DNA of 64,000 nucleotides, from the NCBI GenBank assembly GCA_017449525.1, contig JAFTFL010000006.1, forward strand, positions 62,001-126,000, given 5' to 3'. The notes below the pieces were generated by a model. That model searched no databases, was not told where the DNA came from, and was given only the letters and a program-made list of their open reading frames with translations. This document shows positions 14,092-60,065 of this stretch, piece by piece. The position numbers and the translations under genes are program-made. Numbering within the stretch: the stretch's first letter is position 1; each line of letters starts with the position of its first letter. This stretch comes from Bacteroidales bacterium. Lineage in GTDB: Bacteria; Bacteroidota; Bacteroidia; Bacteroidales; P3.

Positions 14092-14238
14092 CTGCACTCT
14101 TCCACCCCTAAGCCGTACGACAGCGCAGCACATGCCGTACAGCAGCACCGTTCCACAACAAGATGTTTTCCAACGATATTGTACAAAAGAGGCCTCCATG
14201 CTGTACGGCATGGAGGCCTAACTCTGCACTCTTCCACC
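14092..14238 (-). repeat. Phased GTAC palindrome array A (gyrB-galE gap)
   Basis: GTAC cores start at 14115, 14137, 14181 and 14203, that is 22, 44 and 22 bp apart; three sit in GYCGTACRGC-type palindromes. A 15-bp direct repeat (CTGCACTCTTCCACC) begins at 14092 and 14224, exactly 132 bp (6 x 22) apart, framing the array. The unit at 14203 lies in the loop of a perfect stem (14190-14219). A minus-strand promoter at 14334-14365 faces the array. Read from it, the last unit continues GTACGGCTTAGG. The rest of the 670-bp gap holds no convincing ORF. Confidence 0.75.
14190..14219. other. Perfect 12-bp hairpin with a GTAC loop
   Basis: AGGCCTCCATGC pairs perfectly with GCATGGAGGCCT around the 6-base loop TGTACG, which contains an array core. 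It is one of the strongest hairpins in the window and is not next to any gene end, so it is probably a structured part of an array transcript. Confidence 0.75.
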
Positions 14239-14333
14239 TCTCTTCTCTATGGAGGGGGCACCCCGAGTGCTCACGGCTGCTACAGCTAATGACGAACACC
14301 AACATGGTGGCATTCCGAACCGCATCCGCGCTG

Positions 14334-14365
14334 CAAAAGTACGCACTTTCGGCCAATCCTGCAAA
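14334..14365 (-). promoter_or_regulatory. Promoter facing array A
   Basis: On the minus strand TTTG, 20 bp, then TACTTTTG followed by CA: a full match to the Bacteroidetes promoter. It is 445 bp from gyrB, which has its own closer box, so its first target is the array. Box to first core is 128 bp. Confidence 0.7.
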
Positions 14366-14557
14366 CCACCTTGCGCACCCGCGTAGCATCGTCCACCCTT
14401 AGCGCCAAGCAAAACATGGACTTAAAAGAAGGGTGCCTCATGCAATAAAGAGCATATTAGTCCGTTAGCCACAACAAAAACAGCACCGCGATGCGCACGG
14501 CCGTACCCAGTGCAGACGCACCGCCGAAACAGCAATCATCAACACAACGGAAACACT

Positions 14558-15577
14558 ATGACTAAGATACTTGTAACTGGTGGCGCAGGATTCATCGGAT
14601 CGCACACCACCGTAGAACTGCAGCAACAGGGCTACACCGTCCTGATTGCCGATAATCTGTCAAACACCAACGCAGGGGTGGTGGACAACATTGAGAAGAT
14701 CACCTCCATTCGTCCCCTATTTGAGAAGGTCGACCTGTCGGTGCAGACCGAATGCGCTGCCCTATTCGAGCGCCATCCCGACATTGAGGGTGTCATCAAC
14801 TTTGCCGCACACAAGGCCGTGGGCGAGAGCGTGGAGAAACCGCTCATGTACTACCGCAACAACCTGTGCATCGTGCTCAACGTGCTGAACGAAATGCAGC
14901 GTCGAGGCATCAAAAACTTTGTGCAAAGCAGTTCGTGCACCGTATATGGCGAGCCCGACCAGTTGCCCATCACCGAGACTGCCCCACTCAAACCAGCCTT
15001 AGCCCCCTACGGCAACACCAAAAAGATGGTGGAGGACATCCTGCAAGACTGTGCAAAACAGGACCTCGTGCACGCCATTGCACTACGCTACTTCAACCCG
15101 ATTGGGGCTCACCCCTCAGCACTTATCGGCGAACTGCCGAACGGCGTGCCCAACAATCTTATGCCGTTCATCACCCAAACCGCAGCAGGCATACGCGAAC
15201 AGCTGAGCGTCTTCGGCAACGACTACAATACGCCCGACGGCACCTGCATCCGCGACTACATCCACGTGGTCGACCTGGCTAAGAGCCATGTAGCAGCGCT
15301 TCGTCGCCTTCTGCAGAACGAGCAGAAGGCTCACTTCGAGACATTCAATATCGGCACAGGCAACGGTTTCAGCGTGTTGCAGGTTATCCAAAGCTTCGAA
15401 AAGATGAGTGGACGCAAACTTAACTACCGCATTGCCGACCGTCGTGAAGGAGACATTGAGAAGATATGGGCTGATACATCGTATAGCAACCACGAGCTTG
15501 GATGGCATGCAGAACAAAGCCTTGACGACATGACCCGCGACGCATGGCGCTGGCAACTCCACCTCATGGAGTCGTAG
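14558..15577 (+). CDS. galE: UDP-glucose 4-epimerase
   Basis: A 339-residue cytoplasmic SDR-family enzyme that interconverts UDP-glucose and UDP-galactose. The N-terminal NAD-binding motif GGAGFIGSHT, the catalytic SSSCTVYG segment, and YGNTKKM (YxxxK) are all present, as is the ALRYFNPIGAHPS stretch typical of GalE. I chose the ATG at 14558, directly before the nucleotide-binding strand. It is a single gene with a strong terminator downstream. Confidence 0.96.
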   Translation: MTKILVTGGAGFIGSHTTVELQQQGYTVLIADNLSNTNAGVVDNIEKITSIRPLFEKVDLSVQTECAALFERHPDIEGVINFAAHKAVGESVEKPLMYYRNNLCIVLNVLNEMQRRGIKNFVQSSSCTVYGEPDQLPITETAPLKPALAPYGNTKKMVEDILQDCAKQDLVHAIALRYFNPIGAHPSALIGELPNGVPNNLMPFITQTAAGIREQLSVFGNDYNTPDGTCIRDYIHVVDLAKSHVAALRRLLQNEQKAHFETFNIGTGNGFSVLQVIQSFEKMSGRKLNYRIADRREGDIEKIWADTSYSNHELGWHAEQSLDDMTRDAWRWQLHLMES

Positions 15578-15621
15578 GTCGCACATACTGCAGCACAGAC
15601 AGCGCACTGCAAAAACACCGA

Positions 15622-15665
15622 CTGCCGACCGTAGACGGTATGGTCTACGGTCGGCAGCCGTTTTT
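15622..15665 (+). terminator. Strong intrinsic terminator after galE
   Basis: A perfect 15-bp stem (CTGCCGACCGTAGAC with its complement) around GGTATG, followed shortly by TTTTT. It lies 45 bp after the galE stop. Confidence 0.9.
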
Positions 15666-15697
15666 CAGCACCTCGTCAGCAGGGAGAATAACCTACC

Positions 15698-17287
15698 CTA
15701 TTCGGCTATCGGCTCAATGTTGTAGCCCAACTTGGAGCGCACCATGTCGAGGCCGCTCAGTTCACATTCCACAGCCGATGCTGCACGCACGGACTTGTTG
15801 CACAAGTAGAAGTCGGGCTTGCGTGTGCGACTGGTGTAGCGCACATGCAGGTCTTTGATGCGGATGTGATTCAAGTAACCCACAGGCGGTTGCTTGCGCA
15901 CCCTGCCGTCCACCTTGTAGAGATAGAACCGCTGTGTAATGCGGCTCAGCACCACCGTTACATCTTCCATCACCACGTTGGGCCAGCACTTCTGTGTCAA
16001 CTCTGGGCGACTGTTGGGCGGCGTGTCAAGACGTCCCACCTTCAGCACGCAGTCTTTCTGCGGTGTAGCATAGATAATGCAATGCCTCAGCACTACATCC
16101 ATCGGTGTATAGGCGTTGTATTCCGGACGGATAAACACAGGGTGGCACTGCTCAAAAGTGCAACTGTCGTAGACTATCTCGCCAAAGCCCGACCCATACT
16201 GCACGTGCTGTCCGCGGAAGGTACACCCACGGAAGTAGGCATTGCGCCCATAACAGTGGATGTCGAAACGGTTCACATCGCAGTGATTCAGCGTAGTGTT
16301 ACTAATATTATTGGTGCCGAACACCCCCCAAGCTCCTGTTGCCTTCAGCCGATTGAAGACCACGTTCCATGTATTATTCATCGAGATGCCGTAGCCATAC
16401 TCGTGTTGTTGAGAGTAGGTGCCATTGATGACCATATCGTTCACTTCTATATTGGTGCAGGTGCCAAAGTGAACGGCAGCGTCAGCATACTTCTTCGGGT
16501 CGTAGGGTGTATTAATAGTGATCTGCTCCAGGCGCAGCCCATTCACACCACTGAAGGAGAAACAATTCGTCTTAAATGCTGCACCCTCGGCACGGTCTAT
16601 CACCAGGTCGCGCACCCACTTGTCGTCGTCGTCGACACTCACAACTCTGGTCGTCGGGCGCGAAGGGGGTGCGGCGTAGGGCATGGCGGCGCTGTTGAGG
16701 GCATGGCCATCATGCAGTAGCAGCACGTCGGAGCGCATGGCAGCATAGCCGTAGCCAATACGCTCGGCCACCCACGGCTCCTTGTCGGAAAGCACCAGTA
16801 GCTTCCACCCCTGGCGGAGTTGCTCAACGGAGGTGAAGTCGCCACCGTCGAGCAGTGAGGCATCGACCTCCACATCCTGTGCCGCATTGCTCATCACAAA
16901 AAGGGTCATATTCTTGGCATCGTTGCTCACATGCAGCCGTGTGCCAGCAAAATCGCAGCGGTGGGGCAACGGTATGGAGACTGCATCGGGAGGCAACTCA
17001 ATCGACAGGCGCCCCACCCCTTCATAAGAGATGTCGGCACCGCGGCGCACCGCCTCTTGGTGGGTGCGGAGCAACACGCGGTAGCGCGCCGTATCTGAGC
17101 GCGCCTCGTTCAGCCCGAAATCCAAAGGCGACAACACCTCATGCCGCACCTTTTTAGTACTATCGCGCAAACTGCGCAGCATCAAAATCGACCCTTTTTG
17201 GGCAACGGCACCACACGTCGTGCAGCACACGAGGAGCAGAGCCATCGCGCACCTTAATTGCGAAAAAAGTTCTGTTTTCTTCATCAT
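15698..17287 (-). CDS. Secreted protein, probable right-handed parallel beta-helix
   Basis: A 529-residue protein of unknown specific function with an N-terminal signal peptide (about residues 1-29, ending AVAQ). From about residue 230 it is built from repeated short strands of the kind seen in pectin-lyase-like beta-helices (NGLRLEQITIN, TNIEVNDMVING, WNVVFNRLKATG, NTTLNHCDVN, AYFRGCTFRG, IVYDSCTFEQC), each turn about 22-25 residues. Such proteins often bind or cleave polysaccharides, but no catalytic motif is recognisable. It may share a transcript with the methyltransferase gene upstream (62-bp gap). Confidence 0.72.
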   Translation of the reverse strand: MMKKTELFSQLRCAMALLLVCCTTCGAVAQKGSILMLRSLRDSTKKVRHEVLSPLDFGLNEARSDTARYRVLLRTHQEAVRRGADISYEGVGRLSIELPPDAVSIPLPHRCDFAGTRLHVSNDAKNMTLFVMSNAAQDVEVDASLLDGGDFTSVEQLRQGWKLLVLSDKEPWVAERIGYGYAAMRSDVLLLHDGHALNSAAMPYAAPPSRPTTRVVSVDDDDKWVRDLVIDRAEGAAFKTNCFSFSGVNGLRLEQITINTPYDPKKYADAAVHFGTCTNIEVNDMVINGTYSQQHEYGYGISMNNTWNVVFNRLKATGAWGVFGTNNISNTTLNHCDVNRFDIHCYGRNAYFRGCTFRGQHVQYGSGFGEIVYDSCTFEQCHPVFIRPEYNAYTPMDVVLRHCIIYATPQKDCVLKVGRLDTPPNSRPELTQKCWPNVVMEDVTVVLSRITQRFYLYKVDGRVRKQPPVGYLNHIRIKDLHVRYTSRTRKPDFYLCNKSVRAASAVECELSGLDMVRSKLGYNIEPIAE

Positions 17288-17349
17288 ATCCTTGTCATGT
17301 TCTATTGATTCTGGCTCGGCAAGTGGAGGCCAAACGTGCTGTATGCAGT

Positions 17350-18081
17350 CTACGAGCCAATTAAAAATACGGTATTGCGCTTATGCAAGTTCACCTGCAA
17401 CCGTTCGCTTCGCCACTGCTCGGCGGTGAGCGTGCGCACGTATTGCGAAGGCATCGTGAGGTCGCACGCCACGCAGATGGCCGTATCGGCCCTGCACGTC
17501 TCGCTCAGACTCTGTAGCATCTGATTGTTGCGATAGGGGGCTTCGATGAAAAGTTGCGTTACGCCGTCGCGGCGTGCACGGCTCTCTAAAGTGCGAATGG
17601 TCGCAGCGCGTTGCGACTTGTCAACAGGCAAATAGCCACAAAAAGCAAACTGCTGCCCACCCAGTCCCGAGGCCATAAGAGCCAGCATCAGCGAGGAAGG
17701 CCCTACCAAAGGCCGCACCTCCACCCCCCGACGCTGCGCCATGCGTACTACCGCAGCCCCTGGGTCGGCCACACAAGGCAGGCCTGCTTCGGACAATACG
17801 CCCACGTTGCGCCCTGCCTCAATCTCGCGGAAGCACTCCTTGATGTCTTCGGGCCGACTGTGCTCATTGAGCACGTAGAACTGCGCCTGCTCTATGGCGT
17901 GAGCATAGCCCACGGCGTGCAGAAAGCGGCGCGCCGTACGCAATTCTTCCACCACAAAAACGGCGCAACTGTCAATCCACTCCTTGTTATAGGTCGGTAG
18001 CACTTGGCTCAACGACTCGCTGCCGATGCCCACTGGTATCAGAATAAGTTGACCTCGACATACGGACTTGTTATCTTTCAT
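17350..18081 (-). CDS. RsmI-like SAM-dependent methyltransferase (tetrapyrrole methylase fold)
   Basis: A 243-residue protein with the tetrapyrrole-methylase fold used by RsmI, which 2'-O-methylates 16S rRNA C1402. Family features are LILIPVGIG, VGVLSEAGLPCVADPGAAVV (the SAM-binding loop) and VGPSSLMLALMASGL. Bacteroidetes usually also have a longer canonical RsmI, so this may be the shorter paralogue with a related but unproven target. The gene ends close to the beta-helix gene. Confidence 0.83.
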   Translation of the reverse strand: MKDNKSVCRGQLILIPVGIGSESLSQVLPTYNKEWIDSCAVFVVEELRTARRFLHAVGYAHAIEQAQFYVLNEHSRPEDIKECFREIEAGRNVGVLSEAGLPCVADPGAAVVRMAQRRGVEVRPLVGPSSLMLALMASGLGGQQFAFCGYLPVDKSQRAATIRTLESRARRDGVTQLFIEAPYRNNQMLQSLSETCRADTAICVACDLTMPSQYVRTLTAEQWRSERLQVNLHKRNTVFLIGS

Positions 18082-18105
18082 ACTGCATATTCTTCATTCC
18101 TTCAC

Positions 18106-19467
18106 CTACTCGCCGTTCGTCATCACCAGACGCACACTATCGCATTCGAGGCGCTGCGCAAGCCATTGGTGCATCGAGGCCTGCTGCTTTGCGCTCAGCG
18201 CCTTTGGCTGGGTAGCCACAACCGCCACCACATATCCCTGCATGCTGTCGGCCACACCACGCGACACATAAGCCATGTCGAGCGTTGACACCTCGGGAAA
18301 GAGCGTCTGCAACTCGCGCTCGACTGGCACAGCGAGAACAGCCACCTGCTTGTACGGCTGCAGCACAGCCTGCAACGAATCACTCCGTTGCTGCTGCAAC
18401 TGCAGTGCATCACGGTAATGAGCCACACTACCTCCGGTGGTTCTGCTGCTCTGCCCAACGCCGTTATCGTCAAGGTTGAGCTGTATAAATCGCAGCTCGT
18501 ATGCCCCCAACCCGTAGTGCTCCATATTGTGGCGCGCACGGTCTATCGTCTCCTCGTCCACGATGTTACCCACCGACACCAGTTGCAAAGTGTGCTCATC
18601 CTTGCTCACCTCATGCTCTATAATACGGGAGCCTGGCAAGTCAAACTCTTCCTTAATAAACGACGTAAGGTTGTTGTTGAAGATACTGCCCCTTACGATT
18701 GACACCGTCATGAATACGGCTGGAATCAAGATGATGAACACTATGCTCACCATGATGCGATGGGCTTTGCGAGCTTTGTTCTGGTCCAGCGACACCGTAC
18801 GACGAAAGCCCATGAGCCTAACCCCAAGGGTAGTAGCCAAGGCAATGAACACCGTATTGATGCAGAACAGATAGAAAGCACCCAAGAAGAAGGACAGGTT
18901 GCCGGTGGCTATCCCAAAGCCTGCCGTGCAAAGCGGTGGCATCAGAGCGGTGGCAATGGCCACTCCAGGTATCACATTCCCTTTGCCACCAGAGGCAATG
19001 GCAACGATACCGGCACATCCGCCGAAGAACGCTATGAGCACATCGTACAGGGTAGGTGTGGTGCGAGCCAACAGTTCACTCTGCACATCACCGAGGGGCG
19101 ATATCCAAAAGTATAGGGTAGCCGTTACAATACTGATGACCGTAGCCACCAAAAAGTTCTTGAATGCACGTTTCAGCAGTTCGATATTGCCTATGCCAAT
19201 GGCCAACCCCATGCCCACTATTGGACCCATTAAGGGCGAAACCAGCATGGCACCTATGATGACTGCCGTTGAGTTGACGTTCAACCCCAGCGAGGCAATG
19301 AATATGGCAAAGATGAGCACATAGAGATTGGCTCCACGGAAGGAGACATCACTACTTACGGCATCAATGGTTGCCTGCTCGTCCATCTTGTCTTGATGTA
19401 GACTGAAGTAGCTTTTCAGTCGTTGCAGAAAATCCGTCAGCCTGTTGTGAAGGGTATTCTGGTTCAT
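18106..19467 (-). CDS. DUF389 family membrane protein
   Basis: A 453-residue inner-membrane protein. Residues about 30-260 carry several membrane segments with the conserved DUF389 core (LNVNSTAVIIGAMLVSPLMGPIVGMG; GNVIPGVAIATALMPPLCTAGFG). The C-terminal 200 residues are soluble. Function in this family is unknown. I chose the ATG at 19467, 7 bp after the upstream gene, rather than 19497, which would overlap it. It is the last gene of a cluster with a nucleotidyltransferase and a glycosyltransferase. Confidence 0.87.
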   Translation of the reverse strand: MNQNTLHNRLTDFLQRLKSYFSLHQDKMDEQATIDAVSSDVSFRGANLYVLIFAIFIASLGLNVNSTAVIIGAMLVSPLMGPIVGMGLAIGIGNIELLKRAFKNFLVATVISIVTATLYFWISPLGDVQSELLARTTPTLYDVLIAFFGGCAGIVAIASGGKGNVIPGVAIATALMPPLCTAGFGIATGNLSFFLGAFYLFCINTVFIALATTLGVRLMGFRRTVSLDQNKARKAHRIMVSIVFIILIPAVFMTVSIVRGSIFNNNLTSFIKEEFDLPGSRIIEHEVSKDEHTLQLVSVGNIVDEETIDRARHNMEHYGLGAYELRFIQLNLDDNGVGQSSRTTGGSVAHYRDALQLQQQRSDSLQAVLQPYKQVAVLAVPVERELQTLFPEVSTLDMAYVSRGVADSMQGYVVAVVATQPKALSAKQQASMHQWLAQRLECDSVRLVMTNGE

Positions 19468-19474
19468 TACTATG

Positions 19475-20518
19475 TTAGATTCTTTGTCCCTGTACACGTT
19501 GGCGCAGGGCGATGGTTAGGTTGTTCCAATAAAAACGGCGCAGCATGCCTTTCCCATACAGCCGTCGATACTGCGGTCTGAATCTTGCATACTTGCACAG
19601 CCGACGTGCCACCCTGAGCGCCGTACGGCTGGCACGTGGACGAGGGTCGCGATACATGTCGGCAAAGCACTCCACCACCGACACTGCCGTGGTGGACTTC
19701 TCATAAATATTGGTGTGAAACAGCTTATCACAATAAGCACTCAATGCCTCAGCGAATAGGCCAGCCTCGGTGCAGCTGCACAACTGAAAGAGTTTCTCTC
19801 GGTCAAAACCAGGCTGCCCTGTGAGGAGCACCCAATCCAAGAGCGCACGCATCGGTATGGCTTCGTCGAAGAAGGTGGCGTGGTAATCCGTATGTGCGGC
19901 AAGAAACAGGGCGTGCGCCACCTCATCGAATGTGCCACACTGCCGCAGGTATTGTTCCAGAAGGGCATTGTCCGCATCCTTATAGAGCAGATACCAGTGC
20001 AGTTCGGTGCTCGTGCCGTGCCACCGCAGCACGGTGTGGCGTGCATTACGCCTGTCCATCACCACTTCAGTGGGCAACTGATTCAATGCCGCAACGGTGC
20101 GATGGTGCGTCTCCTCTGACTGCGACCACACGTAGAGGTCTATATCGGAGCATTCTCTGTGCAACGGATTGGGATAAAGTGCAGCCAATGCAGCACCTTT
20201 CACCTCAACAACGGCCGACGTGTCGCCCAGCAAGGGCATTAGTTCCGTCAGCCGCGTGCGTGCTTCGCGCAGGCGAAGTTGGTGTTGTTCCACCTGGTCG
20301 GCATAGCCTGCCATGCGATATAGCAACTCGCGCCGTGGGCGTCGCTCGGTTGGTAGTGCACTTACCGCGTCATACAGCAGCGCACCAACCCGCTCGCGCA
20401 AGGCCTGCTGCCACAAGGCATCCCACTCAGCATCGGTGTGCCGCATCTCCGGCAGAGGCTGTCCCAGACAGGCAGCACCCATATAGGCAGCCAACCACAT
20501 GGTGCTATTGCTGTTCAC
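19475..20518 (-). CDS. NTP_transf_5-type nucleotidyltransferase family protein
   Basis: A 347-residue protein of the uncharacterised nucleotidyltransferase family often found in cell-surface polysaccharide loci. The signature pieces are VKGAALAALYP (residues 106-116) and RECSDIDLYV (residues 121-130), where the two aspartates of DID would bind metal. I chose the GTG at 20518, because it overlaps the TGA of the upstream glycosyltransferase gene (GTGA) and indicates coupling; a longer ORF to 20611 would overlap that gene by 97 bp. The acceptor is unknown. Confidence 0.8.
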   Translation of the reverse strand: MNSNSTMWLAAYMGAACLGQPLPEMRHTDAEWDALWQQALRERVGALLYDAVSALPTERRPRRELLYRMAGYADQVEQHQLRLREARTRLTELMPLLGDTSAVVEVKGAALAALYPNPLHRECSDIDLYVWSQSEETHHRTVAALNQLPTEVVMDRRNARHTVLRWHGTSTELHWYLLYKDADNALLEQYLRQCGTFDEVAHALFLAAHTDYHATFFDEAIPMRALLDWVLLTGQPGFDREKLFQLCSCTEAGLFAEALSAYCDKLFHTNIYEKSTTAVSVVECFADMYRDPRPRASRTALRVARRLCKYARFRPQYRRLYGKGMLRRFYWNNLTIALRQRVQGQRI

Positions 20519-23177: not shown

Positions 23178-23185
23178 TATCTTTG
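23178..23185 (+). promoter_or_regulatory. -7 box facing array B
   Basis: TATCTTTG followed by CACC matches TAnnTTTG. No gene starts between it and the second, nadE-proximal box at 23529, so it would transcribe array B. Box to first core is 104 bp. Confidence 0.55.
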
Positions 23186-23279: not shown

Positions 23280-23450
23280 GGCACTGCCGTACGGCAGGAG
23301 GTGCTTGTGCCGTACGGTGTAGGCGTGCGCTGCGCGCTATCTGAATATAGCACACGTGGTTGCACCACTCTCATGCCGTACGGCAGGCGGGCCGATGCCG
23401 TACGGCGATGGTACCAAAGCCGTACAGCGTTGACCCTCATGCCGCACAGC
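23280..23450 (+). repeat. Phased GTAC palindrome array B (pepD-nadE gap)
   Basis: GTAC cores start at 23289, 23312, 23378, 23400 and 23422, with a degenerate GCAC at 23444: steps of 23, 66 (3 x 22), 22, 22 and 22 bp. A half-step GTAC is at 23411. Four of the cores are in the palindrome GCCGTACGGC or a one-base variant, and the 23422 unit is GCCGTACAGC. The unit at 23312 continues GTACGGTGTAGG. A promoter box lies before the array and another after it. The rest of the 608-bp gap (23053-23660) has no supported gene. Confidence 0.8.
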
Positions 23451-28074: not shown

Positions 28075-28400
28075 CAATAATGCACATTCCCCAACCTTAT
28101 AATGCGCGTCATTCAACTCAATAATGCGCATTTCCCAACCCAATAATGTACGTCATTCAACTCAACGATGTGCATTTTCCAAACTTAATAATGCGCGTCA
28201 TTCAACTCAATAATGCGCATTTCCTCAACTTAATAATGCGCGTCATTCAACTCAATAATACACATTTCCCGATGCAATAATACGCGTCATTCAACTCAAT
28301 GATGCGCATTCCCCAACCTAATAATGTACGTCATTCAACTCAATAATGCGCATTCCCTCAACTTAATAATGTGCGTCATTCAACTCAATGATACATATTT
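28075..28400. repeat. 22-bp tandem array of AATAATGCGC-type units
   Basis: Fifteen units follow each other at 22 or 23 bp from the core at 28082 to that at 28393. Cores are mostly GCGC or GTAC (28104, 28126, 28148, 28170, 28193, 28215, 28238, 28260, 28282, 28304, 28326, 28348, 28371). Two unit types alternate, giving a 44-45 bp higher period: one is close to CTCAATAATGCGCATTTCCC, the other to TTAATAATGCGCGTCATTCA. ATGCGCAT is self-complementary. The array fills most of the 588-bp gap between HU and the acyl-CoA synthetase gene. No ORF is supported, because a 22-bp period does not keep frame. Confidence 0.9.
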
Positions 28401-30858: not shown

Positions 30859-30866
30859 TACCTTTG
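30859..30866 (+). promoter_or_regulatory. -7 box facing array C
   Basis: TACCTTTG followed by CC, pointing into array C. The next genes downstream are on the opposite strand, so it has no obvious coding target. Box to first core is 84 bp. Confidence 0.55.
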
Positions 30867-30945: not shown

Positions 30946-31115
30946 TTCCGTACAGAGCCTGGCAGGCTGTGTCGTACGGCATTCGAGACTTCCCCATACA
31001 GCACCTGCGCCACCTCTCATGCATCCGTGTGGGGTACATCCAGTTGAAGTGGAAAGAAGTCGTACAGGAGCCACCCCCTCAGGCGTACAACCTAGACCTC
31101 TGCGCCGTACGGTAT
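30946..31115 (+). repeat. Phased GTAC array C (acyl-CoA synthetase-cysH gap), irregular
   Basis: GTAC-type cores at 30950, 30974, 30996 (ATAC), 31034, 31062, 31085 and 31107. The steps 24, 22, 38, 28, 23 and 22 show the least regular of the six arrays. Core contexts include GTCGTACGGC and GCCGTACGGT. The last unit continues GTACGGTATAGG, the shared terminal form. The 673-bp gap (30606-31278) also holds a promoter for each side and the cysH terminator, and no supported gene. Confidence 0.65.
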
Positions 31116-31167
31116 AGGTGCCTCCCTCGCACAGCAGCCACCCCACTTCCTCGTCGCGGCTACCTGC

Positions 31168-38268: not shown

Positions 38269-38276
38269 TACCTTTG
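38269..38276 (+). promoter_or_regulatory. -7 box facing array D
   Basis: TACCTTTG followed by CACC, with CTTG 20 bp upstream as a weak -33 element. A second box at 38648 serves the next gene, so this one would transcribe array D. Box to first GTAC is 127 bp. Confidence 0.55.
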
Positions 38277-38374: not shown

Positions 38375-38540
38375 TCTGCCCTGCGGCATAGCCCCTTTTG
38401 CCGTACGGTAGCCAATGCTCCGCAGAACTACATCCGTATGCCTCACCTTGTTAAGTCCGCCACATGCCGTACAGCACTTCCCCTCGGTGTCGTACGGTAT
38501 TGGCCTCATTGCCGTACGGCGTAGGAGCCCATGCAGCACA
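38375..38540 (+). repeat. Phased GTAC palindrome array D (pstS-fadD gap)
   Basis: GTAC cores at 38403, 38469, 38492 and 38514: steps of 66 (3 x 22), 23 and 22 bp. Degenerate units fall on the same lattice: GCC-CTGC-GGC with core at 38381, GAAC at 38425 and GCAC at 38536. The unit at 38514 continues GTACGGCGTAGGAGC, the shared terminal form. The 658-bp gap 38038-38695 holds the promoter of the importer operon, this array and its promoter, and the fadD promoter; no ORF is supported. Confidence 0.78.
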
Positions 38541-38647
38541 GCATCCACCCCTCAAACCGAGGCATCAGTGTGCCGCCACAGAGATGTACTACACCCCCGT
38601 GTAGTACACGTGCCGCATGGACAACGAGCGGTGTGGAATAAAAATCC

Positions 38648-40679: not shown

Positions 40680-40711
40680 TTTGGCCGTACAGCAAAAACG
40701 TCGTACCTTTG
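40680..40711 (+). promoter_or_regulatory. Promoter of tRNA-Gln
   Basis: TTTG, 20 bp, then TACCTTTG followed by CA: a full Bacteroidetes promoter 21 bp before the tRNA. Confidence 0.75.
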
Positions 40712-45496: not shown

Positions 45497-45559
45497 CACT
45501 CCGTTCCGCTCGTTCCCTCCGCAGGGCAACATCTCCCCTTCTACCACATCATTCCCACC

Positions 45560-45710
45560 GCCAGTCGTAGGGCTCTTGCTCCTACGCCGTACAGCACGGC
45601 GCACCAAGCCGTACGACATCCGTCCAGATGCCGTACGGCATTTTTGCCAAATAACTACGTGTGCACCATCTCTATAGAACAAAACAAGGGCGAATGCCGT
45701 ACGACATCCG
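45560..45710 (-). repeat. Phased GTAC palindrome array E (flavoprotein-uvrB gap)
   Basis: GTAC cores at 45589, 45611, 45633 and 45699: steps of 22, 22 and 66 (3 x 22) bp. The missing positions hold degenerate cores on the lattice (CTAC at 45655, GAAC at 45677), and GTAG is at 45567. Read on the minus strand from the facing promoter, units are GTCGTACGGC, GCCGTACGGC, GTCGTACGGC and GCTGTACGGC, and the last continues GTACGGCGTAGGAGC. The 501-bp gap 45497-45997 contains this array, its promoter and the uvrB promoter; no gene is supported. Confidence 0.82.
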
Positions 45711-45826: not shown

Positions 45827-45858
45827 CAAAGGTACACATTTTTTATGACAGCCGCAAA
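45827..45858 (-). promoter_or_regulatory. Promoter facing array E
   Basis: On the minus strand TTTG, 20 bp, then TACCTTTG followed by CAC. The gene beyond the array is convergent, so no minus-strand gene follows. Box to first core is 125 bp. Confidence 0.72.
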
Positions 45859-53452: not shown

Positions 53453-53507
53453 CGATTTTTCTCGCCCATGAGCGCGAGCAGGACGTAATGTCCTCATAGG
53501 CACTTCC

Positions 53508-53628: not shown

Positions 53629-53645
53629 ACACCTTATATATAATG
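53629..53645 (+). repeat. Dispersed AT-rich element between pfkA and rnpB
   Basis: ACACCTTATATATAATG, a variant of the element at 2516, 33385 and elsewhere. Confidence 0.45.
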
Positions 53646-53668
53646 TAACGGCAGCTTGTATAAAGCAG

Positions 53669-53704
53669 CGGCGGCACTCGGATATAGCTTTCCAAGTGCC
53701 GCCG
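53669..53704. terminator. Hairpin downstream of pfkA
   Basis: CGGCGGCACT and AGTGCCGCCG form a 10-bp stem. It lies about 100 bp after the pfkA stop and has only a weak T-tract, so termination is plausible but not certain. Confidence 0.55.
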
Positions 53705-53806
53705 TGTGCGTCGTGCTCTTCATTTTGCCGAGAGGACTGGCGCAAAAGAGCAAACGATCCTGCAAAATCGACAATCTAACTGTTCGTCAATCTGCAACAG
53801 ACCGCG

Positions 53807-55039
53807 TCAGTCCCAGCAGAGGATCCGACGGAAATCATACTCCTCGGGCTTGGACAAATAGTGCTGAGCCCGTTCATAATCCGCCGGGGTAATGTAGTCC
53901 ATAATGTCATTTATGTACGACTGAACCTTATTAGAATTGACGTTTACGAGTCTCGGCAGTATTTTACCCGTGGTCGGGTCCTGGATATCCTTTAAGTAGA
54001 GCGGTGCAAGGTTGCCCTGGTGGTCGATGTACACCATACAACCTGTACAACCCTCTTTGAAAAGTTTGTGAACACCCATACCCATCAGAGAGCAGTAGGT
54101 CAAATCAAATGCTATAGGAGTATGGCACCGTATCTCGTAGCCTATCTCCACCGGACGACTTTTCACTTCGAGGTGAAGTTCTTGAAGTTTGCGTTCCAAC
54201 ATGGTGTTGAAGATATGCGCCTTCGAAACCTTTCCGAGTTCAGGGTGTCCGTGTGCATCGTAACTGAAGTTGACTCCAGTCTTCTGCAGTTCTTCGGTAG
54301 TGAGGCTGTGAAACACGCCTTCCGAAATCATGGCAGCACCGTAGTTGATACCCATCAGTTTGCGTTTCACTATACTGGACACCACTAAGTTGATAATCTT
54401 GTCAAAGGTAATACCCGTGCGATTGAACATCTCGGGTATGATTACCATAGGGTAATGGCATGCTCCAGCAATGCCCAGTGCCAGGTGGCCTGCAGAGCGT
54501 CCCATCGCACTCACCACAAACCAGTTCTCGCTGGTCCGCGCATCCTCCATTACGGCCGTGCCGATGATACAGCCTTGCGACTTGGCCGAATTGTATCCAA
54601 ACGTAGGACTGCTGTTGGGCAAGGGCAAGTCGTTGTCTATCGTCTTCGGCACATGTATATTGGCTATAGGGTAGTGCTTACTCTCCAGGAACTTTGCAAT
54701 GCGATTGGCTGTAGAGGCGGTGTCGTCGCCTCCCACCGTTACGAGTAGCTTAATGTTGTTCTCGGTAAAGAGCGGCAGGTTGAAGCGTTTCTCGAAATCT
54801 TCATCAGTGGGTTTGAACCTACTCATCTTGAGAATTGAGCCTCCCTTGTTGAATATTTCGTCGGCAGTCAAGAAGTCCAATTCCTGCATGCGTGGGGTAT
54901 CGGTAAACAAGGCCGAGTATCCACCGTGCAGACCCAAAACACGGTAGCCATCACGCAGAAAGGTTTTTGCCACCGAGGCGATGACTGTATTCATTCCTGG
55001 CGCTGGGCCGCCACCCGTAAGAATTGCTATTGTGTCCAT
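53807..55039 (-). CDS. 6-phosphofructokinase, probably pyrophosphate-dependent
   Basis: A 410-residue phosphofructokinase that makes fructose 1,6-bisphosphate. VTVGGDDTAST and VPKTIDNDLP replace the GGDGS and PGTIDND of ATP-dependent E. coli PfkA; Asp in GGDD and Lys in PKTID are the residues that favour pyrophosphate. The glycine-rich start LTGGGPAPGMN and MGRSAGHLAL are conserved. The predicted enzyme is PPi-fructose-6-phosphate phosphotransferase, which works reversibly in glycolysis. Confidence 0.88.
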   Translation of the reverse strand: MDTIAILTGGGPAPGMNTVIASVAKTFLRDGYRVLGLHGGYSALFTDTPRMQELDFLTADEIFNKGGSILKMSRFKPTDEDFEKRFNLPLFTENNIKLLVTVGGDDTASTANRIAKFLESKHYPIANIHVPKTIDNDLPLPNSSPTFGYNSAKSQGCIIGTAVMEDARTSENWFVVSAMGRSAGHLALGIAGACHYPMVIIPEMFNRTGITFDKIINLVVSSIVKRKLMGINYGAAMISEGVFHSLTTEELQKTGVNFSYDAHGHPELGKVSKAHIFNTMLERKLQELHLEVKSRPVEIGYEIRCHTPIAFDLTYCSLMGMGVHKLFKEGCTGCMVYIDHQGNLAPLYLKDIQDPTTGKILPRLVNVNSNKVQSYINDIMDYITPADYERAQHYLSKPEEYDFRRILCWD

Positions 55040-55115
55040 GTTTGTGTTGTGTTTATTATTGTTTGATTAAAGACTCTTCTTTCTGTATGTCCTCACTTCT
55101 TACGCATAAGCCGCA

Positions 55116-56546
55116 CTACTCCATAACAACCACCACTGCATAATCCTTCTTCTTGCCAGGGCGGATGTAAAGGCTATATCCACTACCATCTGGGCGCACG
55201 TCCACCTTCCCACCTCCCAATATCTTAGCCTTAGATGGGCTAATGGGCAAGTGGGGAAGCGACAATACCTCGGGAATAGACTCTCCTTCATCCACAAGAT
55301 AAATGGCATAAGTCTTGCGCTTGTCCTTACTTTGCGTAAAGCACCAATGGTCTTGGGTGTAGGGACGTACCGGGCGTGTTGCATAGATGGCATCTCCATT
55401 CACTTTGAGCCAATCGCCCAACTCCTTGAGACAGTTTACCGCACATTCAGGTAATCGACCGCTCTCGTCTGGACCCAAACCAAGCAGCAAGTTACCACCT
55501 CGAGCCACGGTAAGTGCAAGTGTATGCACCAGTTCGCGAGGGCTGTGGCATCTATCCTCTTTGCTGTAGGCAAAGTCAGCCCCCACGCTCATGGCATATT
55601 CCCAAGCCTCCTCTGGATAGGCCTCGTTGGGCAAATCATAGACAACGCGGTAATTCTCATATCGACCACCAACATTTTGGTCGGAGATGAGCAAGTCTGG
55701 AATCTTCTCACGCGCGGTACGAGCCAATGTCGGCACATCGACATCCTGCACATAGCCTCTACATCCCAGCATGTCCACATTGCTGGAGTCAACACTCCAC
55801 TCTGGTCGCACCCACTCAGCTCCCAACCACAGCATGTCGATACCTCCATAATTATGTGTCAGCTCGCGCACCTGATTGTTGACAAAAGTGCAGTAGCGTT
55901 GCCAGCGCTGCGGGTCTTCTGCAGGATTGTAGTTGACGTTGCGGTCGGGCGTAGCCCATTCAGGCGCCCAATAGTCGGGGTGATGCCAATCTGCTTTCGA
56001 GAAGTAGAACCCAGTCCAAAAAGCCTTGGAGCGGAAAGCCTCCACCACAGCGCGGGAAATATCACGGTCCGAGTGTTTGGAGTTTGGACAGCTCTTATCC
56101 GTACAGGTGTAGTTTGTCTCTTTCGAATCAAACAGGCAGAACCCATCGTGGTGTTTTGCCGTGAAGATGACGTACTTCACACCTCCATCGCGAGCATTCT
56201 TAGCCCAGCGCGAAGGGTCAAACTTCTTTGCCTTAAAGGTAGTATTCAGTTTGCGATAACTCTGCACATACTCCATGTAGTCCACGCCTCCACGGTCTAC
56301 CCACGGCTCGCTACAGAGCGTCCACGAGGCTGGTACCGCCCACTGCGAATACAGCCCCCATTGAAAAAGAACCCCCAACTTCAAGTCGCGCCATTCCTCT
56401 ATGCGTTCGCGTATGATGATGTTGTCCTCAGCCTGCAAAGTTGGATTCATCGGAGGCCGAAGCGCACTACTGTCCGCCACGGTTACTTGTGCCCCTATCG
56501 TCTGCGTCAGCACCAGCAGTGCCGCTATCAATAATCTGTATTTCAT
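55116..56546 (-). CDS. GH29 alpha-L-fucosidase-like secreted protein, nucleophile missing
   Basis: A 476-residue secreted protein; the signal peptide (KYRLLIAALLVLTQTIGAQ) fixes the start at 56546. It has the GH29 fold: GVLFQWGLYSQWA, YVIFTAKHHDGFCLF and IDMLWLGAEWV. In active fucosidases the last motif reads LWxDGxW, with Asp as nucleophile; here Gly242 stands in that place. The conserved His of FHWGLYS is Gln62. It therefore may not hydrolyse fucosides normally and could be a binding protein or have changed activity. No other glycoside hydrolase gene is nearby. Confidence 0.85.
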   Translation of the reverse strand: MKYRLLIAALLVLTQTIGAQVTVADSSALRPPMNPTLQAEDNIIIRERIEEWRDLKLGVLFQWGLYSQWAVPASWTLCSEPWVDRGGVDYMEYVQSYRKLNTTFKAKKFDPSRWAKNARDGGVKYVIFTAKHHDGFCLFDSKETNYTCTDKSCPNSKHSDRDISRAVVEAFRSKAFWTGFYFSKADWHHPDYWAPEWATPDRNVNYNPAEDPQRWQRYCTFVNNQVRELTHNYGGIDMLWLGAEWVRPEWSVDSSNVDMLGCRGYVQDVDVPTLARTAREKIPDLLISDQNVGGRYENYRVVYDLPNEAYPEEAWEYAMSVGADFAYSKEDRCHSPRELVHTLALTVARGGNLLLGLGPDESGRLPECAVNCLKELGDWLKVNGDAIYATRPVRPYTQDHWCFTQSKDKRKTYAIYLVDEGESIPEVLSLPHLPISPSKAKILGGGKVDVRPDGSGYSLYIRPGKKKDYAVVVVME

Positions 56547-56630
56547 ATCCTGCAGATGTGTACAGAGTCGATCATAGCTTGACATGGGCAAGAGGCCACA
56601 CTGTCCAGTGGCACCTGCCGATTCGTTGCT

Positions 56631-56648
56631 ATATATAATATAAGGTGT
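56631..56648 (-). repeat. Dispersed AT-rich element before the GH29 gene
   Basis: On the minus strand ACACCTTATATTATATAT, 84 bp upstream of the GH29 start and in the same orientation relative to the gene as the copies before pepE and the DUF5723 gene. Confidence 0.5.
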
Positions 56649-56671
56649 AGTTCACGTCCTTCTACAAAAGC

Positions 56672-56709
56672 AGGTGGATGCCACCTCCAGTATGGGGCGG
56701 CATCCACCT
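56672..56709 (-). terminator. Intrinsic terminator after rocD
   Basis: AGGTGGATGCC and GGCATCCACCT form an 11-bp stem around a 16-base loop; on the minus strand it is followed by GCTTTTG. Confidence 0.8.
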
Positions 56710-56743
56710 TTCTATTCTTGATGTCCAAGACAGGTCATCTGCT

Positions 56744-57967
56744 CTATTCGAACGAAAGTATTGCATCCTTGATGATGGCGATGGCCTCTCGGAGCTGCTC
56801 TTCCGTAATGACCAGTGGTGGTGCGAAGCGGATGATGTGCTGGTGGGTCGGTTTGGCCAATACACCCATGTCGCGCATCTTGAGGCACACATCCCAAGCC
56901 TCCTTGCCATCCTTCGGACGAATAATGACCGCGTTCAACAAGCCTTTACCCCTCACCTTCTCTATCATGGGGCTCTTCACCCGTTCCATTTCCTCACGGA
57001 AGATGCGGCCCAGACGGTCTGCATTCTCCATCAAGTGCTCGTCTTTCACCACTTGCAGTGCGGCGATACTCACCTTTGCAGCTATAGGATTCCCACCGAA
57101 AGTGGAGCCATGCTCACCAGGTTTGATATTAAGCATGATGTCGTCATCGGCCAATACACAACTGACTGGAACCACTCCTCCACCGAGGGCTTTGCCCAAG
57201 ATAAGGATATCGGGGCGGACGCCCTCGTGGTCGCATGCCAACATCCTACCGGTACGGGCTATACCACACTGGACTTCGTCGGCCATGAACAACACGTTGT
57301 GGCGTTTGCAGATGTCATAGCACTTCTTCAGATAACCCTCATCGGGCACATATACACCGGCCTCACCCTGGATGGGCTCGAGTAGGAAGCCAGCCACCCT
57401 ACTGCCATGCTCTTCAAGCACTTTTTCCAGTGCATCCGCATCGTTGTAGGGTATGCGCAAGAAACCAGGGGTCATAGGTCCATAGTTTGCATAACTCTCT
57501 GGGTCGTTGCTCATGGTAATGATGGTTATCGTACGGCCGTGGAAGTTTCCTTCACAGCATACAATCATCACCTCTTCATTCTTGATGCCTTTCTTCATGA
57601 CTCCCCAGCGGCGAGCCAGCTTCAAGGCGGTCTCATCTGCTTCGGCGCCACTGTTCATGGGCAACACCTTGTCGTAGCCAAAATACTCGGTTACATACTT
57701 CTCCCATTCGCCAAGACAGTTGTTGTAGAACGCCCGGCTACTGAGTGTCAACTGCTGTGCCTGGTCGCACAGTACTTTGACGATTTTGGGATGGCAGTGT
57801 CCCTGGTTCACGGCACTGTAGGCCGAGAGGAAATCAAAGTAGCGTTTTCCCTCGCAGTCCCACACAAAGGGGCCTTCTCCCTTTGCCAATACGACTGGCA
57901 GTGGATGATAATTGTGGGCACCGTAGCGGGCCTCCATCTCCATGAATTGTTCGGATTGTGTCTTCAT
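56744..57967 (-). CDS. rocD: Ornithine aminotransferase
   Basis: A 407-residue PLP enzyme that converts ornithine and 2-oxoglutarate to glutamate semialdehyde and glutamate, linking arginine breakdown to proline. PLP-site motifs are [58 protein letters not shown] and the Schiff-base lysine in [13 protein letters not shown]. These match ornithine aminotransferase better than acetylornithine aminotransferase. I chose the ATG at 57967 over the TTG six bases upstream. Confidence 0.94.
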
Positions 57968-58026
57968 GAGCAACTCGATTTTTTAAAAGGTTGTAATTGT
58001 AAACTACGCAATGTTCAATTTTTTTG

Positions 58027-58055
58027 CAAAGTTACTCGCTCTACCAAGACGCAAA
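58027..58055 (-). promoter_or_regulatory. Promoter of rocD
   Basis: On the minus strand TTTG, 17 bp, then TAACTTTG followed by CA. It is divergent from the ABC ATPase promoter that overlaps the same region. Confidence 0.65.
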
Positions 58056-58060
58056 GGACG

Positions 58061-58068
58061 TACTTTTG
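58061..58068 (+). promoter_or_regulatory. -7 promoter box of the ABC ATPase gene
   Basis: TACTTTTG followed by CAAAG, 24 bp before the start at 58093. Confidence 0.65.
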
Positions 58069-58092
58069 CAAAGTTATACACTCTTTATCAAC

Positions 58093-59832
58093 ATGCCCAC
58101 TTCTCCTCTGCTCAGCGTGTCAGACCTTACGGTAGAGTTTCGTCGCGACGACGGTTTCCACCCTGCAGTACAAGGTGTTTCGTTCGAAGTGGAGCGCGGC
58201 AAAACGCTCGGTATCGTGGGAGAGTCAGGCTCTGGCAAGACGGTGAGCACCCTGGCGCTGATGGGGCTACTTCCCAAAGCGCAAACGCGCATCACCTCGG
58301 GTCATGCACTGTTTACCTGCAAGCACAACGAATCGGACGACCGTCCGACTACGACGGATTTGCTCACGCTGAGCGAGGCAGACATGCAGCACGTACGAGG
58401 CAGACACATCTCCATGATATTTCAAGAGCCGATGACCAGTCTGAACCCAGTGCAACGCTGTGGTGCACAGGTGGCTGAGATGTTGCAGCTGCACAGTGCT
58501 CTGCCTCAGTCGGAGGTTCGTAGCCGTGTGCTGTCGCTGCTCGACGAGGTGCGGCTACCCAATCCCGAGCGTGTCTACAGGGCTTACCCTCACGAACTGT
58601 CCGGAGGCCAAAAGCAGCGGGTAATGATAGCCATGGCCTTGATGTGCCACCCCGACCTCATTGTGGCTGACGAGCCCACGACGGCACTCGACGTTACGGT
58701 GCAGCGCAGCATTCTCGAACTGCTGCAACAGATGCAGGAGCGCTACGGCATGAGTATGATTTTCATTTCGCACGACTTGGGCGTCATTTCGCAAGTGGCG
58801 CACACGGTGGCCGTGATGTACCGCGGACGCATTGTCGAACAGGGCGAGGTCAGCAGCATACTGCATGCTCCTCGCGAGGCCTACACCCAAGGGCTCATTG
58901 CCTGTCGACCGCCGCTCGACAGCCGTCCACGCCGCCTACCCACCGTCGACGACTTCCTGCGAAACGCTGAGGCATCCTCCACCGAAGTTCCCCTCGAGAC
59001 AAACGACGAACGCACCGCGCGGCTGCACGCCCTCCAGCAGCAAAAGCCACTTCTGAGCGTGCGCAACCTGAGTGTGGATTACGTGGCGAAACGCAACCTT
59101 TTCGGCCGGCCCACACGCCGCTTCACCGCCGTTGACGACATCAGCTTCGACGTCTTTCCAGGCGAAACGCTGGGATTAGTGGGCGAATCAGGTTGCGGCA
59201 AAACCACTCTCGGCCGCACCCTGCTGCGACTAATTGAAGCACGCAGCGGCTCCATCACCTTCGACGGCACCCCCATCGACCAACTGTCGGAGCACACCTT
59301 CCGACGGCTACGTCCCTCGCTGCAGATTGTGTTCCAAGACCCCTACTCTTCGCTCAACCCGCGCAAGCCCATCGGCGAAACCATTCGAGAGCCGCTGACG
59401 GTGCACCAGCGCGAACTGTCGAAAGCCGAAGGTCGCGCACGCGTGGTGCAACTCATGCAGCGCGTTGGTCTCGACCCCGAATGGTACAACCGCTATCCGC
59501 ACGAGTTCTCAGGCGGCCAACGCCAACGGGTGTGCATAGCCCGCGCCCTGATTATGAACCCACGGCTCGTTATCTGCGACGAGTCGGTGTCAGCACTTGA
59601 TGTGTCGGTGCAGGCGCAGGTCCTGAACCTGCTTGCGGAGCTAAAGCAGAGCTTCGGTTACACCTATGTGTTCATCTCGCACGACCTGTCGGTTGTGCGC
59701 TTTGTGAGCGACCGCATCATGGTGATGCGCAACGGCCGCATTGTCGAACAGGGCGAAGCCGACAGCCTCTTTGCCAACCCGCAGCAGCCCTACACACGCT
59801 CACTCATCGACGCACTGCCCCACATCGGCTGA
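58093..59832 (+). CDS. Double ABC ATPase of a peptide-type importer (DppD-DppF fusion)
   Basis: A 579-residue protein with two complete nucleotide-binding domains, as in YejF/GsiA. The first has [48 protein letters not shown] and [12 protein letters not shown]; the second has [44 protein letters not shown] and [19 protein letters not shown] and [10 protein letters not shown] at the ends of the domains are typical of dipeptide/oligopeptide systems. I chose the ATG at 58093. The permeases are not adjacent; the binding protein at the left edge of the window belongs to the same broad system type. Confidence 0.93.
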
Positions 59833-59914
59833 ACCACAACCCGACACTTTCCCTCCCCCGCCTCACCCCATCCTCACCTATGAGGGTGGAAGTTCCACTC
59901 TTGCCCCCCGAGCA

Positions 59915-60065
59915 CTCGTGCCGTACGCGTGCCGCACCTACGCCGTACGGCACACACGGAGAAGGCGTACGGCATCGAGCCCGATGCCGTACGCCTTTAA
60001 TCATGCACAACAACATGATTCCCACCCTCGTTCCAGAAAGCAAGCATCTACGCCGTACGACAGAA
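59915..60065 (-). repeat. Phased GTAC palindrome array F (ABC ATPase-SDR gap)
   Basis: GTAC cores at 59923, 59945, 59967, 59989 and 60055: exactly 22, 22, 22 and 66 (3 x 22) bp apart, the most regular of the set. A half-step GCAC is at 59934. Read on the minus strand from the facing promoter, units include GTCGTACGGC, GGCGTACGGC and GCCGTACGGC, and the unit at 59945 continues GTACGGCGTAGGTGC. The 439-bp gap 59833-60271 has no supported gene. Confidence 0.85.

Follow-up and report, generated by a model that had tools for sequence, protein, structure and literature searches.

The window analysed here, a 64,000-nucleotide stretch of a Bacteroidales genome, carries six intergenic arrays of the dyad site GCCGTACGGC, each of which belongs to an oriented module of ~300 bp that joins the array to a predicted promoter and recurs, evenly dispersed, along the chromosome. 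The best explanation overall, with a probability of roughly 45%, is that these modules are docking platforms for a promoter-coupled nucleoprotein lattice that organises the chromosome. A dimeric, sequence-specific DNA-binding protein would fill the dyads of each platform cooperatively along a single helical face, and the filament so formed would contact RNA polymerase, or control it, at the promoter of the same module. The lattice would then serve chromosome organisation rather than a regulon, for example as transcription-coupled insulators or as borders of supercoil domains about every 17 kb. That the GCCGTACGGC dyads form a protein lattice on duplex DNA is probable from their sequence pattern; the chromosome-organising role is the weaker step and is put forward tentatively. 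The promoter-plus-palindrome modules suggest an undescribed way to organise or control a bacterial genome and, if the explanation is true, the bacterium sets transcription-coupled protein lattices at even chromosomal intervals.

The initial annotation had described clusters of the palindrome GYCGTACRGC in six gaps, with spacings of 22, 44 or 66 bp, and a lattice scan of the window returns exactly these six. With at most one mismatch the motif has 71 strand-matches in the window against 15.2 ± 4.2 expected (0 of 100 shuffles reach 71), and across the whole genome it has 221 + 240 strand matches against 37 + 39 for the reversed control. There are 193 GCCGTACGGC sites (at most one mismatch) in 857 kb, whose pair distances peak at 22/23, 44/45, 66-68, 88-90, 110-113 and 132-134 bp, while the reversed control has 54 sites and a single pair within 400 bp. 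The excess of 22-bp distances, chosen beforehand as the point on which the claim could fail, is present across the sampled half of the genome. A lattice scan of 1.257 Mb (about half of the genome) gives 71 arrays, 60 of them with one inward predicted promoter, both counts being made with matrices trained partly on the same sequences; the mean lattice spacing is 22.13 bp over 462 units, and the genome is extrapolated to hold ~143 module copies. The hold-out contigs C6 and C4 reproduce the lattice with 21 arrays, all intergenic. Likewise, the clusters are absent from coding genes as had been claimed, since all 146 sites of multi-site clusters and all 71 lattice arrays are intergenic by the gene calls of a purpose-written hexamer gene finder. 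Single GCCGTACGGC-type sites lie inside genes in 31 of 47 cases, a density close to that expected by chance. A pair of sites separated by 17 bp at position 198683 of contig C15, 0.4 kb from an array, is off the lattice and is excluded from the 71.

The typical sense order of the module is promoter, ~100 bp, R1, R0, M3, M2, L0, L1, L2 and L3, in which R1, R0 and L0 to L3 are dyad sites and the lattice positions M3 (CTAT) and M2 (CACACCTTGTTGTG) form the core. The promoter, a prediction from sequence, is of the Bacteroidetes type with a weak TTTG near -33 and a -7 box TACCTTTGCA. No array has promoters on both sides and 11 of the 71 have no recognisable one; in other intergenic DNA the promoter-match rate is 0.355 per kb-strand. 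The recurring 66-bp gap is the conserved oriented core occupying two lattice positions, and the fit of this core over 37 gaps reaches 859.6 against 214-251 for 12 shuffled sets. Fitted with the flanking sites included, the model assigns a core to 56 of the 60 promoter-bearing arrays, and leave-one-out scoring puts only 26 of the 60 above the 99% null threshold. Core and promoter have the same orientation in all 26 arrays where both pass the strict test. The earlier description of the sequence between cores as not conserved is thus right for the spacers, which are divergent (identity 0.315 vs 0.270 from composition over 60 modules), apart from a weak GGG.CC, and wrong for the 66-bp gap with its conserved core.

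Each of the six arrays of the window has a core and a predicted promoter pointing into it. Array 1 (14112..14209, minus strand, sense minus) lies between a GyrB-domain gene (-) and an epimerase-family gene (+), with its core at 14153..14181 (-) and a predicted promoter whose -7 box TACTTTTG at 14334..14341 (-) is 132 bp from R0. Between an M20 peptidase gene (-) and an NAD synthase gene (+) is array 2 (23286..23450, +), which has its core at 23337..23365 (+) and a predicted -7 box TATCTTTG at 23178..23185 (+), 131 bp from R0. The remaining four share the predicted -7 box TACCTTTG. In array 3, which is degenerate (30971..31135, +; between a succinyl-CoA-ligase-like gene (-) and a PAPS reductase gene (-)), this box is at 30859..30866 (+), 134 bp from R0, and the core at 31021..31049 (+) is weak. 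For array 4 (38378..38542, +), between a PBP-like gene (-) and an AMP-binding enzyme gene (+), the box is at 38269..38276 (+), 131 bp from R0, and the core at 38428..38456 (+). Array 5 (45518..45705, -) separates the gene of an FAD-dependent protein (+) from uvrB (+), with the box at 45827..45834 (-), 129 bp from R0, and the core at 45649..45677 (-). Array 6 (59920..60061, -) occupies a convergent gap, its box being at 60184..60191 (-), 130 bp from R0, and its core at 60005..60033 (-).

The promoter-to-array distances vary in steps of 11.1 bp. Of 56 distances anchored on the core, 23 depart from the main mode; these follow 131 + n x 11.1 bp (R = 0.76), with a mean residual of 1.10 vs 2.78 expected, which none of 20,000 uniform draws equals. 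Because their distances change in such steps, promoter and lattice would lie on a common face of the DNA; the original proposal of sites on one face every two turns is well supported by these steps and by the mean lattice spacing. For the helical repeat in vivo, E. coli lac looping gave a fitted value of 11.08 ± 0.04 in one data set and of 11.60 and 10.95 in two others, as reported in PMC1762422. Even on a cautious reading, the modules would be natural sequence evidence that the helical register in vivo is 11.1 bp in a bacterium other than Escherichia coli, and the even spacing together with the phase leads to testable predictions on supercoiling, insulation and folding. The promoter and its helical phasing had been missed in the first reading of the window.

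A protein on duplex DNA is favoured over RNA because the site variants have neither a compensatory nor a strand-biased excess. Complementary double changes within sites number 13 vs 26.4 ± 4.7 expected, a deficit that may be an artefact of selecting sites by score. Among 307 sense-oriented sites, C-to-T and G-to-A changes are nearly equal (120 vs 116), without a strand bias of the G-U type, and a pairing signal in the core is absent (top z 2.3 over all column pairs). The Rfam gathering scan of the window returned only RNase P and a tRNA, and a scan of one module at E<=1 had no match. The initial suggestion of an RNA whose self-complementary elements recur at regular distances is hence mostly unsupported, and RNA hairpins were dropped as the main reading, with two exceptions. 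Long inverted repeats occur at 10 of 267 sites, where ~1 would be expected; all ten are in the half nearest the promoter, with 0 of 184 sites further on, a hint that RNA or a cruciform plays a part in some copies. In addition, the L0-R0 pairs have a mild compensatory excess (7 vs 3.8 ± 1.7). These exceptions, along with the inward consensus promoter of most arrays, would fit a multigene regulatory RNA family in which the functional product would be the non-coding transcript of each promoter, ~260-290 nt long, with palindromes that bind a protein or each other. Such a family is nevertheless decidedly unlikely, as a compensatory excess is seen neither within sites overall nor, L0-R0 aside, between them, terminator-like signals past the array are not in excess (5 of 60 vs 4 of 60 for the opposite strand), and the promoter distance follows the pitch of the DNA helix.

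Along the chromosome, module spacing is more even than expected by chance: for 62 spacings the CV is 0.48 vs 0.82 ± 0.09 under a null model that retains gap class, and 2 spacings fall below 7 kb vs 16.0 expected. Taken by themselves, the hold-out contigs show weaker over-dispersion (CV P = 0.009; 2 spacings below 7 kb). Among gaps of at least 200 bp, arrays occupy 38 of 78 divergent, 22 of 180 tandem and 4 of 38 convergent ones, the preference for divergent over tandem gaps having P = 1.3e-9. Module orientation has no bias with GC skew (23 of 60), and no replication polarity is seen. The 20 annotated flanking genes are mixed and mostly housekeeping, without an evident theme, and at tandem gaps the module is sense to the gene downstream in 12 cases and antisense to it in 10. 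A coding product is not indicated either, the longest ATG frame of the sense transcript having a median of 49 aa vs 58 in the reversed control. Because the modules are evenly dispersed, without a flanking-gene theme and without a coding product, chromosome organisation is preferred over a regulon. Operator arrays of one large regulon, through which one transcription factor would govern ~140 promoters and the flanking genes, could explain the fixed helical phase of the promoters and the preference for divergent gaps; they do not predict even spacing, the flanking genes offer no theme or consistent sense, and an AsnC/Lrp-type domain was not found in the host genome, which leaves this explanation improbable. 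An Lrp/AsnC operator array was rejected as such, with 0 matches to PF01037 (AsnC_trans_reg) in the host genome and in each of 12 same-genus genomes. In arrays of the Lrp/BarR type, as described in PMC10201364, a divergent intergenic region holds several semi-palindromic sites at a regular distance of two helical turns, with the DNA wrapped on an octamer; unlike the modules, they have 15-bp sites at one locus.

Even spacing would also suit target immunity, and the modules could be a domesticated MITE-like mobile repeat that spread with such immunity setting a minimum distance and later lost its mobility. Arrays were sought in 966 other genomes with only two single pair matches, at chance level, and apart from these nothing was found in relatives. 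The gap between the FAD-dependent protein gene and uvrB is 465 bp in the host genome, and in eight relatives with the same order and orientation the alignment ends are -5 to 51 bp apart in seven (genome G002, with a 49-bp gap, was left out of this comparison as its gene order is reversed). In some modules similarity extends over short stretches outside the sites (93% over 45 bp at best), and 200 module pairs among the 60 compared are similar at E<1e-3. Against mobility, no near-identical whole copies occur among the 60 modules, conserved columns are almost absent in the 70 bp outside L3 and upstream of the promoter, terminal repeats or conserved borders were not seen, and spacer identity is near that of composition. 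Y1_Tnp, the sole transposase family searched, was not found in the host genome either, and a mobile origin is unlikely. REP/BIME elements with RAYT transposases are likewise dispersed intergenic palindromes, and they are not known to have a 22-bp lattice or phased promoter. RAYT/REP was rejected with 0 matches to PF01797 (Y1_Tnp) in the host genome (94.65% complete), 16 of 20 other genomes having one.

BrickBuilt, a minisatellite/MITE of Porphyromonas gingivalis, is described with a conserved 23-nt tandem unit AGAYCATARTATCCTCTCRTRTG, a leader and a tail with terminal inverted repeats like those of IS5-family elements, and 19 copies in ATCC 33277 (PMC4596501). As described there, it shares with the modules a restriction to one species, a purely intergenic location, many dispersed copies and a unit of about two helical turns. 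BrickBuilt has promoter activity, and in the modules (intergenic in 71 of 71) a promoter is predicted from sequence in 60 of 71. Unlike the AGAYCATARTATCCTCTCRTRTG tandem unit, the module unit is a GCCGTACGGC dyad with divergent spacers, such that mainly the dyad cores, the core motif and the promoter are kept. The modules also differ in having fixed positions, even chromosomal spacing, an extrapolated copy number of ~143 and no terminal repeats seen.

Among 18 sampled genomes of the same genus, seven have other cores repeating every 10-12 bp, mostly in divergent gaps; the presence of such arrays in part of the genus suggests a DNA-recognition system with rapid turnover. Other palindromic 22-bp arrays were not seen in relatives, with 0 pairs at 22/23 bp in nine of ten sampled genomes (the tenth, G031, is uncounted as an N run fills its counts), and no GCCGTAC lattice scoring 20 occurs in 395 kb of the ten. 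Lag-11 tests outside the genus were negative. It is conceivable, if rather doubtful, that fast-evolving, genome-wide sets of intergenic docking arrays in an 11- or 22-bp register, recognised by a co-evolving architectural protein, extend across the genus and were fixed here as evenly placed modules marking chromosome domains; if true, this would amount to a chromosome-folding code dispersed along the DNA, with no counterpart among the bacterial systems described. The 11-bp repeats of several relatives, and other 22n-bp tandem repeats present in the host genome, would fit neutral mutational duplication of intergenic DNA in helical-pitch steps, with functionless lattices. This is very improbable, as duplication alone would neither give a common core, a fixed eight-position plan and a promoter at many sites nor preserve sites while spacers diverge.

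For the promoter-coupled docking platforms preferred here, a binder gene was sought near lone sites and promoterless arrays, and no DNA-binding regulator was present among 19 annotated proteins, one of which has no Pfam match. An extra ParB, with ParB/parS or Noc-like sites, was rejected because the host genome has a single PF02195 match, as have most relatives. The parC centromeres of plasmids, bound by ParR, resemble the modules in their two repeat blocks in an 11-bp register around a central segment, and differ in being one site per plasmid, with direct repeats and adjacent segregation genes. Mycobacteriophage stoperators, as described, are dispersed like the modules and are repressor sites acting on transcription elongation, but unlike the dyads they are asymmetric and lie in phage genomes. 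Literature searches over open-licence PMC papers returned no bacterial element with the module plan, and none of the tested families fits it. Sixteen stretches in viral contigs have a single match each. Lastly, the window holds a separate 22/44-bp lattice at 28075..28389 (no strand), which has a different dyad core, AATGCGCATT, and stands outside the GCCGTACGGC family.

The palindrome GYCGTACRGC, reported in the initial annotation as six intergenic clusters on a 22-bp lattice, has 71 strand-counted matches with at most one mismatch in the window (62001-126000 of contig C16) against 15.2 expected, and 461 exact strand-counted matches across the genome (2.53 Mb, 26 contigs) against 76 for a reversed control. 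Both the pattern count and a lattice scan of the window place the six clusters where they had been described. The excess of 22-bp multiples among core distances also holds beyond the window. In an 857-kb sample chosen irrespective of array content (contigs C14, C15 and C22 plus the window), the dyad site of the family, GCCGTACGGC, occurs within one mismatch at 193 sites, separated by 22/23, 44/45, 66-68, 88-90, 110-113 and 132-134 bp, and the reversed control yields 1 pair. Scores of the 50 arrays that the lattice scan detects in this sample run from 29.8 to 76.6; reversed sequence peaks at 19. With parameters frozen, a hold-out of 400 kb (contigs C6 and C4) gave 21 arrays, the weakest having two sites and a score of 23.8 (C6 43797), and reversed sequence topped at 15.7. 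The arrays had been taken to lie outside genes, and they do: coding overlap is zero for all 50 sample arrays, and all 21 hold-out arrays are intergenic. The mean lattice spacing is 22.132 bp (462 units), and 71 arrays per 1.257 Mb extrapolate to 143 for the genome.

Many arrays contain an exact 66-bp gap in which two further elements keep to the same lattice: M3, around ATAG, and M2, an imperfect dyad (ACAACAAGGTGT) whose centre coincides with a lattice point. The orientation fit over 37 such gaps was 859.6 versus 214-251 for twelve shuffled sets. In the sense order of the module, dyad sites R1 and R0 precede this core and L0 to L3 follow it. An outward walk from 31 of the 37 gaps (score at least 16; sites accepted at no more than two mismatches) found L1 in 19, L2 in 29, L3 in 10 and R1 in 16; past L3 and R1 the sites end, with 1 and 1 at the next positions on the left and 0 on the right. 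The spacers carry a weak GGG.CC signal and are otherwise near composition identity (0.315 vs 0.270), and longer stretches are shared among some of 60 modules (200 pairs at E<1e-3; the best 93% over 45 bp).

The modules appear to carry their own promoter. Across 46 arrays oriented from the core alone, a Bacteroidetes -7 box (TA[CT]NTTTG) is recurrent on the opposite strand at a fixed R-side position, directed into the array. A matrix built from 30 boxes predicts one inward promoter in 60 of 71 arrays and promoters on both sides in none, on a background of 0.355 per kb-strand. The core has the expected sense in 56 of the 60 promoter-oriented modules under the fitted model; a stricter leave-one-out test is passed by 26 of the 60, with agreeing orientation in all 26, versus 1 of 11 promoterless arrays (Fisher P = 0.043). 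Of 56 promoter-to-R0 distances, 33 are 129-134 bp, and the remaining 23 fit 131 + n x 11.1 bp with a mean residual of 1.10 versus 2.78 expected; a period of 11.1 bp gives R = 0.76 and one of 10.5 bp gives R = 0.37. In-vivo helical repeats fitted to three sets of E. coli lac looping data are 11.08, 10.95 and 11.60 (PMC1762422). We read the 11.1-bp phasing of promoter and lattice as a DNA-level constraint, and the best-supported reading of the sequence is that the dyad sites would act as a lattice on duplex DNA that keeps phase with the promoter of its own module.

The initial annotation also considered an RNA with regularly spaced self-complementary elements. Complementary double changes in the dyads of 364 array sites number 13 versus 26.4 ± 4.7 by chance, which is taken only as absence of an excess because choosing sites by score disfavours double changes. 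No consistent compensation was found between paired lattice sites (the largest, L0-R0, being 7 vs 3.8 ± 1.7), no pairing signal was seen in the core, and no Rfam family matched the arrays. Over 307 sense-oriented sites, C-to-T and G-to-A changes number 120 and 116; on the arbitrary contig strand, with fewer columns, they number 99 and 140. Against a DNA-only reading, 10 of 267 sites lie inside long inverted repeats where about 1 is expected, all 10 in the promoter-proximal half and 0 of 184 beyond it. A minority of modules may have an RNA or cruciform role, beside the duplex-DNA lattice preferred for the family.

Of the gaps of at least 200 bp, 78 are divergent and 38 of these hold arrays; tandem gaps do so in 22 of 180 cases and convergent gaps in 4 of 38 (divergent versus tandem, P = 1.3e-9). 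Under a null that preserves gap class, the 62 spacings between 68 array-bearing gaps are unusually even (CV 0.48 vs 0.82 ± 0.09), with 2 below 7 kb versus 16.0 expected and 0 below 5 kb versus 11.0. The minimum in the discovery set alone was 7.1 kb, but the hold-out includes 5.7 and 6.6 kb, so there is no hard 7-kb limit. Module orientation follows neither GC skew (23/60) nor, in tandem gaps, the adjacent gene, which is sense in 12 cases and antisense in 10. The 20 flanking genes annotated, none of them from beside array 6 (the convergent gap near 60.0 kb), are of mixed kinds, including GyrB-domain, NAD synthase, UvrB, GidA, histidyl-tRNA synthetase and exchanger genes. From the even spacing, the absent gene theme and the absent coding product, we infer a role of the lattice in chromosome organisation. 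Among candidate binders, no AsnC/Lrp domain was found in this genome, and its one ParB is ordinary. An array without a recognisable promoter adjoins each of two giant frames (L028:572-12754 and L152:4071-16253), which are both exactly 4060 aa long and are unrelated to one another. One of them combines fn3 repeats with a Por secretion tail, and the other has Ig_7 together with CHU_C type IX secretion signals.

The GCCGTACGGC pair pattern is abundant in this genome and absent or at control level in the 966 others sampled. It was found in 0 of 60 relatives, 0 of 392 other genomes in a sample of the order and 0 of 394 in a sample of the phylum; a looser pattern had one match each in 2 of 189 others of the family, not above the reversed control. 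All four samples overlap, and the 966 are their combined number. A lattice scan of 395 kb from ten relatives gave no score as high as 20. The window's AMP-binding gene has 64-73% identity to relatives in five MAG records, including rumen and horse-faeces Bacteroidales. The gap between the FAD-dependent protein gene and uvrB, which holds array 5, is 465 bp here; 8 of 29 relatives' uvrB loci keep the gene order and orientation. The alignment ends are -5 to 51 bp apart in seven of those eight (about 1.3 kb in the other), so at this place the module was either gained here or lost in the relatives. No RAYT (Y1_Tnp, RAYT/IS200-type) was matched in this genome, whereas a match is present in 16 of the 20 genomes compared with it. 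The nearest described element met, BrickBuilt of P. gingivalis, shares the habit of the modules but not their plan (PMC4596501).

Some members of the genus have a comparable habit built on different sequences. Intergenic sequence from ten genomes (59.7 kb) has 16.5 4-mer self-matches per thousand at lag 11, 12.2 at lag 22 and 10.6 at lag 33, versus 4.5-8.9 at the remaining lags between 8 and 49. When three or more identical 6-mers in a run are counted as a cluster, 18 same-genus genomes hold 15 clusters at 10-12 bp, spread over 7 genomes, and 11 at 21-23 bp, spread over 6, with 9, 1 and 4 at the control spacings of 14-16, 17-19 and 26-28 bp; a single genome with 7-bp repeats contributes five of the nine at 14-16 bp. 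For nine genomes of other genera of the family the counts are 1 and 5 (controls 0, 1, 1), for nine of the order's other families they are 3 and 3 (controls none), and for three of other orders 0 and 0 (one in controls). Of the 14 clusters at 10-12 bp whose context is known, 9 lie in divergent gaps, a preference with P = 0.001. Against generality of the 11-bp habit stand a further sample of eight genomes from the genus, with a weaker lag-11 excess (12.2 vs 8.0 ± 3.0) and a larger excess at lag 21 (19.0), its absence at lag 11 in other genera of the family (8.1 vs 7.7) and in other families (6.6 vs 6.9), and the lack of a 10-12-bp cluster in 11 of the 18 same-genus genomes.

Intergenic 11-bp repeats with species-specific cores occur at loci L092-L094 (genome G012), L095-L096 (G146), L106 (G010) and L099-L100 (G029). 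Cores such as AAGAAC (G012), ACCGTA (G146) and GGTCCG (G010) are not alike between species and occur at least twice in a genome, and several of the repeats at these loci come back at two or three places per genome. In a genome from another family of the order (L224, G054), two places carry a repeat of 23 bp built on ACAAGCTTGT-like dyads. The present genome counts 35 clusters in the 21-23 bp class, of which 9 lie outside GCCGTACGGC arrays, and 2, 2, 1 and 1 at 10-12, 14-16, 17-19 and 26-28 bp. A separate 22/44-bp tandem lattice of the dyad AATGCGCATT occupies window positions 28075-28389; further copies of this dyad, spaced 23 bp apart, lie at C14 250280-250335 and C22 112045-112077. Longer intergenic tandem repeats have periods near multiples of 22.2 bp: 67 bp (C14 21250-21626), 66 bp (C4 157899-158208) and 179 bp (C22 1-570). 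A lone GCCGTACAGC (window 40684-40693) is followed closely downstream by the -7 box, at 40704, of the likely tRNA-Gln promoter.
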